From Caldifarciminota bacterium (GTDB lineage: Bacteria; Hydrothermota; Tepidihabitantia; B3-TA06), in the NCBI GenBank assembly GCA_016934635.1, contig JAFGSK010000030.1:1-64000 (forward strand): a stretch of DNA of 64,000 bases, read 5' to 3'. Positions 300 to 3,564 of the stretch are shown one piece after another. How positions within the stretch are numbered: position 1 is the stretch's first letter; every line of letters begins with the position of its first letter. The notes beneath the pieces were generated by a model. It saw only the letters and a program-made list of their open reading frames with translations, did not search any database and had not been told where the DNA came from. The position numbers were made by a program, and so were the translations under genes.

Positions 300-349
300 G
301 CCGAAGCTTCGCTTCGGCGAATGCGGCTTCCAGCCGCTACACCTTGACG
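291..349 (+). repeat. Two-hairpin dispersed repeat, copy A, ending in a -35 box
   Basis: Hairpin 1 is GCCGAAGC-TTC-GCTTCGGC (300-318). A linker containing ATG follows, then hairpin 2, GCGGC-TTCCA-GCCGC (323-337), then TAC and the -35 hexamer TTGACG (344-349). Other copies lie at 1254-1317, 4651-4735 and 5049-5091. Confidence 0.75.
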
Positions 350-371
350 CCGTCATATTATTTACTATAAT
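344..371 (+). promoter_or_regulatory. Promoter of the first small-protein gene
   Basis: TTGACG (344-349), 16-nt spacer, perfect TATAAT (366-371). Transcription would start near 378, leaving a leader of about 119 nt before the gene at 497. The leader contains a small hairpin (CTCG-TAA-CGAG near 434-444) and a repeated GGCGTTA word, so it could be structured. Confidence 0.75.
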
Positions 372-496: not shown

Positions 497-778
497 ATGA
501 CTCAAGAAAATATCACTGGTGATCATATCATCAGTTCGCTCAAAACTTTAGGGTTCAGTGAATCATCCGAAAAGGCTGAGGCAGAAAACTCTATCAATCT
601 CAGATTGGGCGAGCACAAGATTAGCGTTTCCAAAGGTACGCTGAATTCGGAAGAGACAACCCGCATACGCACCGAACTCAGTCCTATCTTCAAGACCCTC
701 AATAAAAAGGTCGAGGCGTCATCAGACGAGACCGTTTTGAGCGTAAGGGACTGGCTCACAAGTTCGTCGAGCGAATAA
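497..778 (+). CDS. Small conserved protein of unknown function, paralogue 1 (93 aa)
   Basis: I do not recognise a named family. The 93-residue product is the first of three paralogues here (also 1462-1737 and 1758-2057). All share SLKTLGF (residues 14-20), a GEHxIxV block (38-44), an ELxPIF block (60-65) and a C-terminal SSxDxxxxxVRDWL block (74-87). There is no signal peptide, no membrane segment and no cysteine. The pattern suggests an alpha-beta-beta-alpha fold. AAGGAG at 485-490 fixes the start at ATG 497; the ATG at 493 opens only a ten-codon frame. The gene has its own promoter (344-371) and terminator (803-833). Because a radical SAM enzyme follows the third paralogue, these may be its substrates or partners, but no function is shown by sequence. 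Confidence 0.85.
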   Translation: MTQENITGDHIISSLKTLGFSESSEKAEAENSINLRLGEHKISVSKGTLNSEETTRIRTELSPIFKTLNKKVEASSDETVLSVRDWLTSSSSE

Positions 779-802
779 GATTCGCACAAACTGACCTCAT
801 TG

Positions 803-833
803 GGGCCTGCCGCAAGGCGGGCCCTCTTTTTTT
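803..833 (+). terminator. Rho-independent terminator after the first small-protein gene
   Basis: A 9-bp stem GGGCCTGCC / GGCGGGCCC (803-811 and 816-824) closes a GCAA tetraloop and is followed by seven T (827-833). The surrounding ~60 bp, including upstream bases, is repeated at 3437-3496. Confidence 0.93.
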
Positions 834-861
834 ACACAGGAGACAATGGGGATTAATCCAT

Positions 862-903
862 GACACCCTGAGAGGGTGTCCTCCGTCTCTGTGCTACTTG
901 ACT
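862..903 (+). repeat. Perfect hairpin followed by a -35 box
   Basis: GACACCCT-GAG-AGGGTGTC (862-880) is a perfect 8-bp stem. The next bases, through the CTCTGTG word ending near 893, recur at 4785-4807 with about one mismatch in 23. The segment ends in CTAC-TTGACT, the same junction that ends the two-hairpin repeats. Confidence 0.65.
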
Positions 904-925
904 TGCCAGGCTATCTCCTTACAAT
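898..925 (+). promoter_or_regulatory. Promoter, probably leaderless
   Basis: TTGACT (898-903), 16-nt spacer, TACAAT (920-925). The ATG at 933 is eight bases beyond the -10 box, with no Shine-Dalgarno site. The -35 abuts a repeat. Confidence 0.5.
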
Positions 926-932
926 GCCAACT

Positions 933-1196
933 ATGTTTGCATCGGTATTACTTATCATCACCGCATGCGTGGTTTCCGCTCTTGCGGCAATGCGGTTTGT
1001 CTCCGCTGTTCGCAAGCTTGCCGCCTGCACGCCGGACACCCACAACACCCGTAACACCCGTAACACCCGTAACACACATGCGTCCACCAGGCGTTCCAGC
1101 GCCAGGCATCAGGACAAGCCGCCTTTGGTGTTCTGGGCAGTTGCATCGCCGGTGATTGCCGCAGCATTCGTAATGCTGACCATCTTTTCCCTTTAA
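933..1196 (+). CDS. Possible small two-span membrane protein (87 aa)
   Basis: From ATG 933 the frame encodes 87 residues. It has a hydrophobic N-terminal segment (about residues 3-20), a polar middle with an Asn-Thr-Arg tripeptide repeated three times plus Asn-Thr-His, and a second hydrophobic segment at the end (about 63-87). I chose 933 because it sits at the expected transcription start of the 898-925 promoter; the frame is open further upstream but only into the repeat. Caution: the Asn-Thr-Arg stretch comes from a 9-bp tandem repeat (AACACCCGT, 1044-1070) whose complement also occurs in non-coding DNA near 60110, and reading frames on the other strand are equally open. It may not be a gene. 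Confidence 0.35.
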   Translation: MFASVLLIITACVVSALAAMRFVSAVRKLAACTPDTHNTRNTRNTRNTHASTRRSSARHQDKPPLVFWAVASPVIAAAFVMLTIFSL

Positions 1197-1253
1197 TATC
1201 CACATTCCTGGAAGCCCTGCTTCCGCGCATGTGTCCCCTGGACCCTGGGTTGC

Positions 1254-1317
1254 CGTCGAACAACCAGGGCATAAGGTGCGGTTCGGCGAATGGATGCCCA
1301 CGGCATCCTACTTGACA
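1254..1317 (+). repeat. Two-hairpin dispersed repeat, copy B, ending in a -35 box
   Basis: The first hairpin is loose (GTCGAAC near 1255 against GTTCGGC near 1281, separated by an insertion). The second is a clean 7-bp stem, GGATGCC-CAC-GGCATCC (1292-1308), then TAC and TTGACA (1312-1317). The second stem has a different sequence from copies A and D but pairs fully. Confidence 0.7.
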
Positions 1318-1339
1318 TACTGCTCGAAAGTACTATAAT
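1312..1339 (+). promoter_or_regulatory. Consensus promoter of the small-protein/radical SAM operon
   Basis: TTGACA (1312-1317), 16-nt spacer, TATAAT (1334-1339). Both hexamers are perfect. Transcription would start near 1346, giving a leader of about 116 nt before the gene at 1462, close in length to the leader of paralogue 1 though not similar in sequence. Confidence 0.85.
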
Positions 1340-1461
1340 AATTTATAAGGCAACGTAAGAGGAGAGTATTCGGCGAGAATAATTTCCATTAGCCGGACCT
1401 TAAATTGGGGCCAGTTATAATCCTATTTTGCCACGGAAACAATACATACAAGGAGAAATAA

Positions 1462-1737
1462 ATGTCACAGGATACAGTAATCATGACTTGTGAACATATA
1501 ATCAGGTCTCTAAAAACATTAGGTTTTATGGTAGAACGTATTAACGAGAATCTGATTAATCTTCACAATGGTGAACATCATATAAGGGTTTCCCGCGGTG
1601 CCCTTGACAATGAACGCGAGAACCGTATGCGCAGGGAATTACCGCCCATATTTGCGTTTTTTAATGAGATGATAAACTCATCAACGGATACGAATCTTCT
1701 TGCAGTCAGGGATTGGCTGGCAAATCCGGGTTCCTAG
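1462..1737 (+). CDS. Small conserved protein of unknown function, paralogue 2 (91 aa)
   Basis: This is the second of three paralogues. It keeps SLKTLGF (16-22), GEHHIRV (37-43), ELPPIF (59-64) and VRDWL (82-86), with variable residues between. It is soluble-looking, with no signal peptide. AAGGAG precedes ATG 1462. It is the first gene after the perfect promoter at 1312-1339, and paralogue 3 starts 20 nt after its stop, so the two small proteins and the radical SAM gene probably share one transcript. Conservation is spread along the whole chain rather than confined to a leader, which fits a folded domain better than a classic leader-core peptide precursor. Function unknown. Confidence 0.87.
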   Translation: MSQDTVIMTCEHIIRSLKTLGFMVERINENLINLHNGEHHIRVSRGALDNERENRMRRELPPIFAFFNEMINSSTDTNLLAVRDWLANPGS

Positions 1738-1757
1738 CGACTTTTCAAGGAGAAATA

Positions 1758-2057
1758 ATGGCACAATCGAGTATAACCGGCGATAATATCGTCGAATCCC
1801 TCAAGACCCTGGGGTTTGTCGAATCGGACATGCAGTCGAAGTCCGAAAACAAGGTCAGTCTCAGCAATGGAGAGCATAAGATAATCGTCACTAAGGGGTG
1901 GCTGGAGAACCCGGAAGCAAACCGGATGTACGAAGAACTTCTGCCTATCTTCGAGGCTTTCGAAAACCAGGTTCAGTCGTCCGATGACAGAAACCTTCAC
2001 AAGGTAAGGGATTGGCTGGAAGCAAGGACCGCAAAGATAAGAAACCGCGCGATCTGA
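1758..2057 (+). CDS. Small conserved protein of unknown function, paralogue 3 (99 aa)
   Basis: This is the third paralogue, with SLKTLGF (14-20), GEHKIIV (38-44), ELLPIF (60-65) and VRDWL (83-87). It differs from the others by a basic C-terminal tail (roughly residues 90-99). The frame is open upstream to 1713, but AAGGAG at 1747-1752 and alignment with the paralogues place the start at ATG 1758. It ends 13 nt before the radical SAM gene, so the two are almost certainly co-transcribed. That makes this the most direct candidate for a substrate or partner of the enzyme. Confidence 0.88.
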   Translation: MAQSSITGDNIVESLKTLGFVESDMQSKSENKVSLSNGEHKIIVTKGWLENPEANRMYEELLPIFEAFENQVQSSDDRNLHKVRDWLEARTAKIRNRAI

Positions 2058-2070
2058 GATCAATCGATAA

Positions 2071-3381
2071 ATGAAAAAAGGCATTTCAACCAATCCTAAG
2101 GTGCTTTTGTGCACTACCTACCGACGCTTTCCGCGCGACTACACCACGATAGCTAACGCCCCGCGCAGGGTAAGCCCTGGTCTGCGCTTCATCAAGCAAA
2201 ACGTGCCCGAAGTCGAGATACTTGAGTATCCGCGCTGGAACCAATACGCAGCAAAACTCCGCGAAGGCTGGGACGTGGTGGGGTTCAGTTTCTACCAGAA
2301 CGAGATTGACCAGATAGGCAAGATGGCCGCCGAGGCTCGCAGCCAGGGAGTTCGCGAACTCTGGGCAGGCAACTACGGCGCTTTGGACTACTCCATACCT
2401 TCACTGGTGGACAGGGTCTTCATCGGCCCGGCTGAGGACGATGTCGCACAGGTTTTCGGCTACCGAGTCAGGCAGGAAGACATCCAGCATCCGGTGATGA
2501 TGGCGCAATACTCCGTTATCCCGGGCATACGCACCCTTACCCTGGGACTCTTGTATACCGCTCACGGCTGTCCTTACTCCTGCTCGTTCTGCCAGACCCC
2601 GGTGTTCGACAGTAACCGGTTTACCATCAATCTGGAAAGCATCGAACGTGTCCTTCGCTATTACAAAAAGCACGGAGTTGCGTATCTTTTCCCCATGGAT
2701 GAAATCTTCGGCATCTACCCCAAATTCACAGACGAGCTTACCCGCATGTTCGCCCGGTACAAGTTCCGCTGGTGGGCCCAGTCGCGGGCGTCATTGTTCA
2801 TGCATAATCTGGATACCTGGCACGAACGGGGCCTTCGCATACCCTCGGTCGGGGTGGAATCGATGATACAGGGATCCCTGGACGGCATAAACAAGCGGCA
2901 GAAGACCGACGAGATTTTGGAGTTTTGCCGCCGCACGCGAGAGAAAAAAGGCATGTTCCGCATAAGTTATTCGATGATAGGGCACGAGAACCTTAACGCA
3001 GAGCAGACGCTGGAAGACGCCTCCCTTTTACGAAAGGCGGACTTTGACGCGCACGCCGTTTCGGTCATAACGCCCTTCCCGAAAACGCCCCTGTGGAATA
3101 AGCTCAGCGCCAGCAACGCAATCTTCGACCGGAAGTTCAGCCATTACAAACTCAGACACCTGGTGTGGAACCATCCTCATATATCACCCGCCGAGATGCG
3201 TTATCTCTTGATTTACATAGAAAGCCGCCTAAACAGCACTTTCAAATTCATCCACAAGGGAATTTCACGGTTTCTGTGGGGCGGACTTCGCCAGGACGGC
3301 CCGGTCATCATCTGGCGTAGTCTTCTCAAAGGCCCGGTAGCAGCCGCCTTCGTTGACGACCGCAAGCAGGTTTTCTTTTAA
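2071..3381 (+). CDS. B12-binding-type radical SAM protein
   Basis: The product (436 aa) has two recognisable parts. Residues 1-135 resemble the cobalamin-binding Rossmann domain of B12-dependent radical SAM enzymes, including a VGFSFYQNE strand-turn (70-78) and a VDRVFIGPAEDD segment (113-124) equivalent to the usual DxxxxGEGE region. Residues 155-330 form the radical SAM core with CxxxCxxC at Cys167, Cys171 and Cys174, which would bind a 4Fe-4S cluster and S-adenosylmethionine. No second cluster (SPASM) is visible. Enzymes of this class methylate or rearrange unactivated carbons in peptides, lipids or small molecules; the substrate here is unknown. It follows paralogue 3 by 13 nt and is closed by the terminator at 3464-3495. 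The start ATG has only a weak ribosome site, so translational coupling is likely. Confidence 0.9.
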   Translation: MKKGISTNPKVLLCTTYRRFPRDYTTIANAPRRVSPGLRFIKQNVPEVEILEYPRWNQYAAKLREGWDVVGFSFYQNEIDQIGKMAAEARSQGVRELWAGNYGALDYSIPSLVDRVFIGPAEDDVAQVFGYRVRQEDIQHPVMMAQYSVIPGIRTLTLGLLYTAHGCPYSCSFCQTPVFDSNRFTINLESIERVLRYYKKHGVAYLFPMDEIFGIYPKFTDELTRMFARYKFRWWAQSRASLFMHNLDTWHERGLRIPSVGVESMIQGSLDGINKRQKTDEILEFCRRTREKKGMFRISYSMIGHENLNAEQTLEDASLLRKADFDAHAVSVITPFPKTPLWNKLSASNAIFDRKFSHYKLRHLVWNHPHISPAEMRYLLIYIESRLNSTFKFIHKGISRFLWGGLRQDGPVIIWRSLLKGPVAAAFVDDRKQVFF

Positions 3382-3436
3382 GAGTCTACATATTTTTTAA
3401 GACGGGAAACTTTTGAAAGTAACGGATTGACTGGAA

Positions 3437-3496
3437 GGTAAGATTCACATAAACTGACCTCATAGGGTCTGCCGCAAGGTGGGCCCTCTTTTTTTA
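3437..3496 (+). repeat. Duplicated terminator neighbourhood (copy of 775-834)
   Basis: From the AAGATTC word through the T run, this segment matches 775-834 at most positions, including bases upstream of the stem that are not needed for termination. Paralogue 1 and the radical SAM gene therefore share the same 3' flank, which points to a past duplication of a cassette with this end. Confidence 0.85.
3464..3495 (+). terminator. Rho-independent terminator after the radical SAM gene
   Basis: Stem AGGGTCTGCC / GGTGGGCCCT (3464-3473 and 3478-3487) with a GCAA loop and several G-U pairs, then seven T (3489-3495). It is the sister of the terminator at 803-833. Confidence 0.9.
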
Positions 3497-3564
3497 CCCC
3501 AAACGTCTGTTTTGCAAACTGCACCCAGTTGCGCGGAATCTCGAGGCTTCGAGACGATAGCTCC

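Follow-up and report, generated by a model that had tools for sequence, protein, structure and literature searches.

We analyzed a 64,000-nucleotide stretch of DNA from Caldifarciminota bacterium (assembly GCA_016934635.1, contig JAFGSK010000030.1, positions 1 to 64,000), hereafter the window, which is the start of contig C51 in a 3.33-Mb draft genome, G000. Near its beginning lie genes for three small proteins, sp1 to sp3 (these and their relatives are termed SPs), and for a radical S-adenosylmethionine (rSAM) enzyme (Table 1). An initial annotation made from the sequence alone had described three ~95-residue paralogues with common conserved blocks, the last of which ends 13 nt before the enzyme gene, and both statements were confirmed. 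The proteins have 91 to 99 residues and are 45 to 49% identical (49% and 46% identity to sp1 for sp2 and sp3, respectively), with 34 columns that are invariant across all three, including the blocks SLKTLGF, GEH, L.PIF, and VRDWL. Strong Shine-Dalgarno sequences are found at sp1, sp2, and sp3 (AAAGGAG, CAAGGAG, and CAAGGAG, respectively). Comparison with G001, the second genome of the same genus, gave nonsynonymous (dN) and synonymous (dS) values of 0.21 and 0.56 for sp2, 0.04 and 0.36 for sp3, and 0.06 and 0.82 for rSAM; since dN is well below dS, which corresponds to purifying selection, these are real genes. The genes sp2, sp3, and rSAM are separated by gaps of 20 and 13 nt and form an operon that contains no peptidase or exporter gene. 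The grouping made in the initial annotation needs one refinement: sp1, which ends 683 nt upstream of sp2 and has its own promoter and terminator, lies outside the sp2-sp3-rSAM transcription unit.

Table 1. Coordinates of the SP and rSAM genes and of associated features in the window
Feature	Position	Strand	Details
sp1 promoter, sigma70 type	344..371	+	TTGACG-16-TATAAT, 11/12; 125 nt upstream of start codon
sp1, predicted dead HicA-fold small protein	497..778	+	93 aa; separate transcription unit
Intrinsic terminator 3' of sp1	802..834	+	Near-identical to terminator 3' of rSAM
sp2-sp3-rSAM operon promoter, consensus sigma70	1312..1339	+	TTGACA-16-TATAAT, 12/12
sp2 5' leader	1346..1461	+	GGCAA/UUGCC closing stem; structure evidence weak
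sp2, predicted dead HicA-fold small protein	1462..1737	+	91 aa
sp3, predicted dead HicA-fold small protein	1758..2057	+	99 aa from ATG; E30-N31-K32 align with HicA G-S-H
rSAM, putative B12 class	2071..3381	+	436 aa; N-terminal Rossmann domain, CxxxCxxC 167/171/174, AprD4/CysS/MgmA-like predicted fold
Decayed 3' end of another SP gene	3401..3442	+	D G K L L K V T D stop L E G K
Terminator 3' of rSAM	3464..3497	+	Homologous to sp1 terminator

The descent of the SPs from HicA toxins was missed by the initial annotation; a common origin is well supported by our computations, though not proven. None of the three proteins has a significant match in Pfam or NCBIfam. The AlphaFold2 (AF2) model of sp3, based on an alignment of 16 relatives (mean predicted local distance difference test [pLDDT] score, 81), consists of a helix, strands, a helix, and two further helices. 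Several lines of evidence link it and its family to HicA. (i) The only confident Foldseek match of the model among solved structures was HicA of Streptococcus pneumoniae HicBA (5yrz_B; probability of 1.00, TM score of 0.71 by target length, 2.0 Å, 56 columns, E value of 0.039); HicA of Burkholderia pseudomallei ranked 14th. (ii) Alignment of the SP profile with a profile built from 26 HicA domains of the same class gave a score of 39.6 (P of 5e-7), whereas 200 column-shuffled controls reached at most 17.2. (iii) When genomes were searched with the SP profile, the top match outside the SP family, on G023:C6, is a bona fide HicA (Pfam, 1.7e-9). (iv) PF07927 covers most of its model in two divergent SP members, with E values of 0.0029 and 0.08, both below the cut-off; the best member scored 18.1 bits and did not reach the gathering score of 27. 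A sequence search of solved structures with the SP profile returned nothing under 0.029. The predicted SP fold is a double-stranded RNA-binding domain (dsRBD)-like alpha-beta-beta-beta-alpha core followed by two extra C-terminal helices. This core is common to the HicA toxins (PF07927, YcfA/dsRBD-like), homology to which is seen at the profile level. Among published architectures, the nearest is that of Class 8 HicA (Gerdes 2024, PMC10865869), which measures ~95 aa, carries two additional helices at its C terminus, and has a long HicB partner; the SPs resemble it in length and in the two C-terminal helices.

Unlike HicA toxins, the SPs lack the G-S-H catalytic residues, are mostly acidic instead of basic, occur in paralogue arrays, and remain below the Pfam cut-off. 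Gly22 and His24 of B. pseudomallei HicA are needed for toxicity (PMC3969222). In the window SPs the G-S-H position reads E-N-K, E-N-S, or E-N-L, with no histidine kept there, and the catalytic Gly and His of this motif are absent from the SPs. The isoelectric points of sp1, sp2, and sp3 are 5.2, 6.0, and 5.4, respectively, compared with at least 9.6 in the 26 HicA domains. As the fold is present without the residues that define the toxin, we refer to the SPs as HicA-derived rather than as HicA. Because some SPs are basic, they may bind nucleic acid. We considered whether the SPs are still toxins that act together with the enzyme against phages, as may hold for the hicA genes adjacent to prokaryotic viperins in classes 9 and 10 (Gerdes 2024, PMC10865869). 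This published adjacency is a lead and not a test; it agrees with the HicA fold of the SPs and with the position of one SP, on G006:C101, in the neighbourhood of a gene product that has a type ISP specificity domain. The loss of the catalytic residues, the acidity of most linked SPs, the B12-class architecture of the enzyme, and its lack of a match to the PADLOC viperin models make this the most improbable of the alternatives weighed here. Furthermore, no HicB-like frame was seen beside the SP loci in the neighbouring frames that were read and in the Pfam scans, a dedicated HicB search not being part of the analysis. Defence-system models for SP or rSAM gave nothing informative, no sp3 relatives were found in phages, plasmids, or viral contigs, and the PHROGs matches were all weak and mostly to families of unknown function.

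The enzyme matches PF04055 with 40.7 bits and has both the CxxxCxxC motif and the TIM-barrel domain; Cys167, Cys171, and Cys174 are invariant in 19 homologues. Its closest NCBIfam models are BchE, HpnJ, and PhpK, all far below their curated cut-offs. In the structural model (pLDDT, 82), the closest fold is AprD4, followed by CysS, MgmA, TsrM, TokK, and OxsB. Matches to TsrM, TokK, CysS, and AprD4 span nearly the full length, and an N-terminal Rossmann (cobalamin-binding) domain is present. The cobalamin type first assigned to this enzyme is borne out at the level of architecture, in that the invariant cysteines, the NCBIfam relatives, and the modelled fold all point to a B12-class radical SAM enzyme. 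AprD4, the nearest fold, is not known to use cobalamin. The N-terminal Rossmann domain, the CxxxCxxC motif, and the AprD4-like overall fold are common to AprD4, BchE, HpnJ, PhpK, CysS, MgmA, and the window enzyme, but the latter differs from them in scoring below the NCBIfam cut-offs and in belonging to an expanded lineage-specific family, with 6 matches at 5 places in G000 and four copies in tandem in G002. An identity as viperin was rejected, given the negative PADLOC result and the B12-class architecture. One paralogue, on G000:C14 (L069 8003-9336), is broken and split over two frames. In four genomes, rSAM paralogues are clustered, in a conserved arrangement, with exported proteins that carry propeller-like LVIVD repeats (L025 3672-9390, L064 11704-17482, L065 3425-9413, and L066 5292-8998). 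This cluster includes an unnamed exported protein of ~255 aa in at least three of the four genomes and is followed by an anti-sigma/metal-resistance set in G000 and G001. Another family, of ~190 aa and with no match in Pfam or NCBIfam, adjoins rSAM relatives in three genomes (L022 4173-4730, L060 9527-10102, and L063 7303-7893).

Among the 147 genomes of the phylum that were searched, SPs are limited to five, all from the window's own Stahlbacteria/WOR-3 family. They amount to at least 22 genes; 22 were included in the tree, and two more fragments or weak matches were left out. Seven of the 22 lie beside an rSAM gene, namely, sp1 to sp3 in G000, two in G001, and two in G002. The remaining 15 have no rSAM gene nearby; among them are SPs that stand alone in G003 and G006, arrays in G001, and SPs in the vicinity of DUF3160 genes (G000 and G001). 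The rSAM family is present in G000 to G005, G007, and G008, with as many as four genes in tandem, and apart from the sp2-sp3-rSAM locus neither SPs nor fragments of them were found at these genes within the flanks searched. G006 contains two SPs, and nothing there matched rSAM at 1e-30; conversely, G004, G005, and G007 contain the rSAM family and no SP. The nearest rSAM orthologues in a sister genus are without SPs, and the orthologues in G003 and G004, of 77 to 79% identity, have no SP alongside. An array in G001 is located at contig ends, with up to five divergent SP paralogues flanked by a trehalose synthase on one side and LigD-type DNA repair genes on the other (L030 2-799 and L031 1-742); the two contigs bearing it may be adjacent. 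Three places in two genomes have SP paralogues on the upstream side of DUF3160 genes (L092 8134-12593, L093 7579-10820, and L095 636-4645).

These data bear on the modification system that the initial annotation had suggested, for which it named small-protein homologues without a radical SAM gene as contrary evidence. This contrary evidence was largely obtained, and the interpretation holds only in part. The same neighbourhood does recur elsewhere, as the sp2-sp3-rSAM unit of two genera, but most SPs and most rSAM genes are apart. With 15 of 22 SP genes unlinked, SPs in G006 without a related rSAM gene, and a link that arose once (see below), a modification system in general was not supported. 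The statement that the small proteins match no precursor family was upheld by a search of Pfam and NCBIfam for precursors of ribosomally synthesized and post-translationally modified peptides (RiPPs) and for RiPP recognition elements (RREs), which gave no match. Equally sound was the view that they are folded proteins and not leader-core peptides, since conservation is spread over the entire protein. We therefore rejected a RiPP precursor with an rSAM maturase, there being no precursor or RRE match, no conserved leader with a variable core, and only 7 of 22 SP genes linked. The locus resembles RiPP rSAM maturation systems in having multiple small genes beside an rSAM gene but differs in the whole-length conservation of the SPs and in the lack of leader and core, RRE, precursor match, protease, and exporter. 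Folded protein substrates, for example methylated ones, appear improbable as well. The precedent is MgmA acting on McrA, in which a B12-dependent rSAM enzyme modifies a protein whose operon often adjoins (PMC11796369); this is again a lead rather than a test, to which the several SP copies beside the enzyme and the predicted fold, resembling MgmA among others, can be added. Weighed against this are the occurrence of most SPs without the enzyme and of the enzyme family mostly without SPs, the missing cysteine in sp1 and sp3, the mostly hydrophobic core positions of the residues invariant over the whole SP family, and an operon without peptidase or exporter.

The promoters and the sequence downstream of the enzyme bear on how the genes came together. 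The 12/12 promoter recurs upstream of sp2 in G001 (at 119 nt) and in G002 (at 123 nt), so that the same type is found in three genomes; promoters of this type also precede free-standing SPs. Two free-standing rSAM relatives (G003:C11 and G000:C85) have a common promoter that is separate from the SP type. The window rSAM gene appears to share the consensus promoter of sp2, and the linked rSAM copies appear to have swapped their own promoter for that of the SPs. Downstream of rSAM, the VRDWL-block TGG reads TGA in the decayed SP tail in both G000 and G001, and the terminator that follows aligns with that of sp1 with a score of 46, as opposed to at most 15 in 2,000 shuffles. The decayed tail and the sp1-like terminator behind the enzyme indicate that the rSAM gene sits within an SP array. 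No SP remnant was found downstream of rSAM in G002, and none was significant next to other rSAM genes within the flanks searched. The SP leaders are ~115 nt long (window 1346-1461 and 378-496, L022 1000-1111, and L026 12640-12756). The GGCAA/UUGCC stem closes the sp2 leader in three genomes, and the sp1 leader has an equivalent stem, GACAAA/UUUGUC, with one compensatory pair; leader energy z-scores are weak. The leaders had no match in Rfam, and a cobalamin riboswitch as a link to B12 was accordingly rejected. At the extreme end of the contig (window 1-178) there is a 31-bp tandem repeat with 5.8 copies and 97% matches, which is probably the cause of the assembly break.

The phylogenies show that the SP-rSAM link arose once. 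The seven linked SPs form one group in the SP tree (support, 94/97), in which the sp2 and sp3 paralogues were already distinct before the split of the two genera, and the three linked enzymes form one clade in the enzyme tree (100/99). A link of single origin suggests that the SPs work with the enzyme or lie next to it and are not modified by it. This origin, the promoter capture, and the SP remnant and terminator downstream of the enzyme would also fit pure hitch-hiking, in which an rSAM gene landed behind a strong promoter and the products are unconnected. We consider this very unlikely, because the three-gene unit was kept after the loss of most other synteny. Among the G002:C51 genes tested, only sp2, sp3, rSAM, and one exported-protein gene have close counterparts at the G000 locus, and the latter is on opposite sides of the operon in the two genomes; among those of G001:C285, only the three operon genes do. 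The retention of the unit while other gene order was lost argues for some functional tie. One such tie would make sp2 and sp3 accessory subunits of the enzyme (adaptor, chaperone, or specificity factor), comparable to the RRE/PqqD-type proteins of rSAM maturases. The tight operon in two genera despite mostly changed flanks, the retention of two distinct paralogues, and the mostly acidic surfaces without a catalytic site, which fit protein binding, are in its favor, as are residues that the seven linked SPs have in common and that are not kept elsewhere (e.g., R56, E60, and N31). This role is nevertheless rather unlikely in view of the orthologous enzymes of G003 and G004 without an adjacent SP, the second of these genomes being devoid of SPs, and of the lack of any RRE or PqqD match.

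The explanation that we prefer, in which we place about half of our confidence, is an operon of dead HicA-fold binding proteins that are co-expressed with an rSAM enzyme acting on something else. According to this reading, the SPs descend from the HicA toxin domain but are catalytically dead, and most of them stand alone or form small arrays. In the ancestor of the two genera, an rSAM gene would have come into an SP array behind sp2 and sp3, to be transcribed from their strong promoter. The SPs would serve as modules that bind proteins, in a role separate from that of the enzyme, which would act on another target, probably a small molecule or lipid, by analogy with AprD4, HpnJ, and BchE. A number of points weigh against this explanation. 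(i) Two genera have kept the sp2-sp3-rSAM unit although its flanks are mostly different, and this retention, together with gaps of 13 to 20 nt, suggests more than a chance neighbourhood. (ii) The linked sp2 of G002 and several unlinked SPs are basic. (iii) The AF2 alignment is shallow (16 rows), the Foldseek E value is modest (0.039), and the Pfam cut-off for HicA is not reached by any SP. (iv) The absences come from draft genomes that are 86 to 96% complete, which makes single absences soft, although the overall pattern is consistent. It is possible, though doubtful, that a disarmed HicA fold was recruited to pair with a B12-class rSAM enzyme, either as its adaptor or as its folded substrate. 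Such recruitment would amount to a novel system for modifying proteins or controlling an enzyme in Stahlbacteria/WOR-3, and HicA and radical SAM proteins would have been paired a second time, independently of the known HicA-viperin pairing. The window locus and the hicA-viperin neighbourhoods have in common a HicA-fold gene beside a radical SAM gene but differ in that the enzyme at the window locus is of the B12 class and AprD4/CysS-like by its predicted architecture and the HicA domain is dead.

Taken together, the locus is a real, somewhat unusual gene arrangement and a variant within a known fold family. The RiPP-like guess gives way to an identified origin: the SPs go back to a toxin fold whose active site has been lost, which has spread within a lineage and, in one of its clades, joined an operon with a radical SAM enzyme. 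If the pairing is not functional, the locus is a clear warning against taking small genes that occur in copies next to a radical SAM gene for substrates as a matter of course. If it is functional, it would show how a toxin domain is turned into a non-toxic partner and would add to the published hicA-viperin neighbourhoods.

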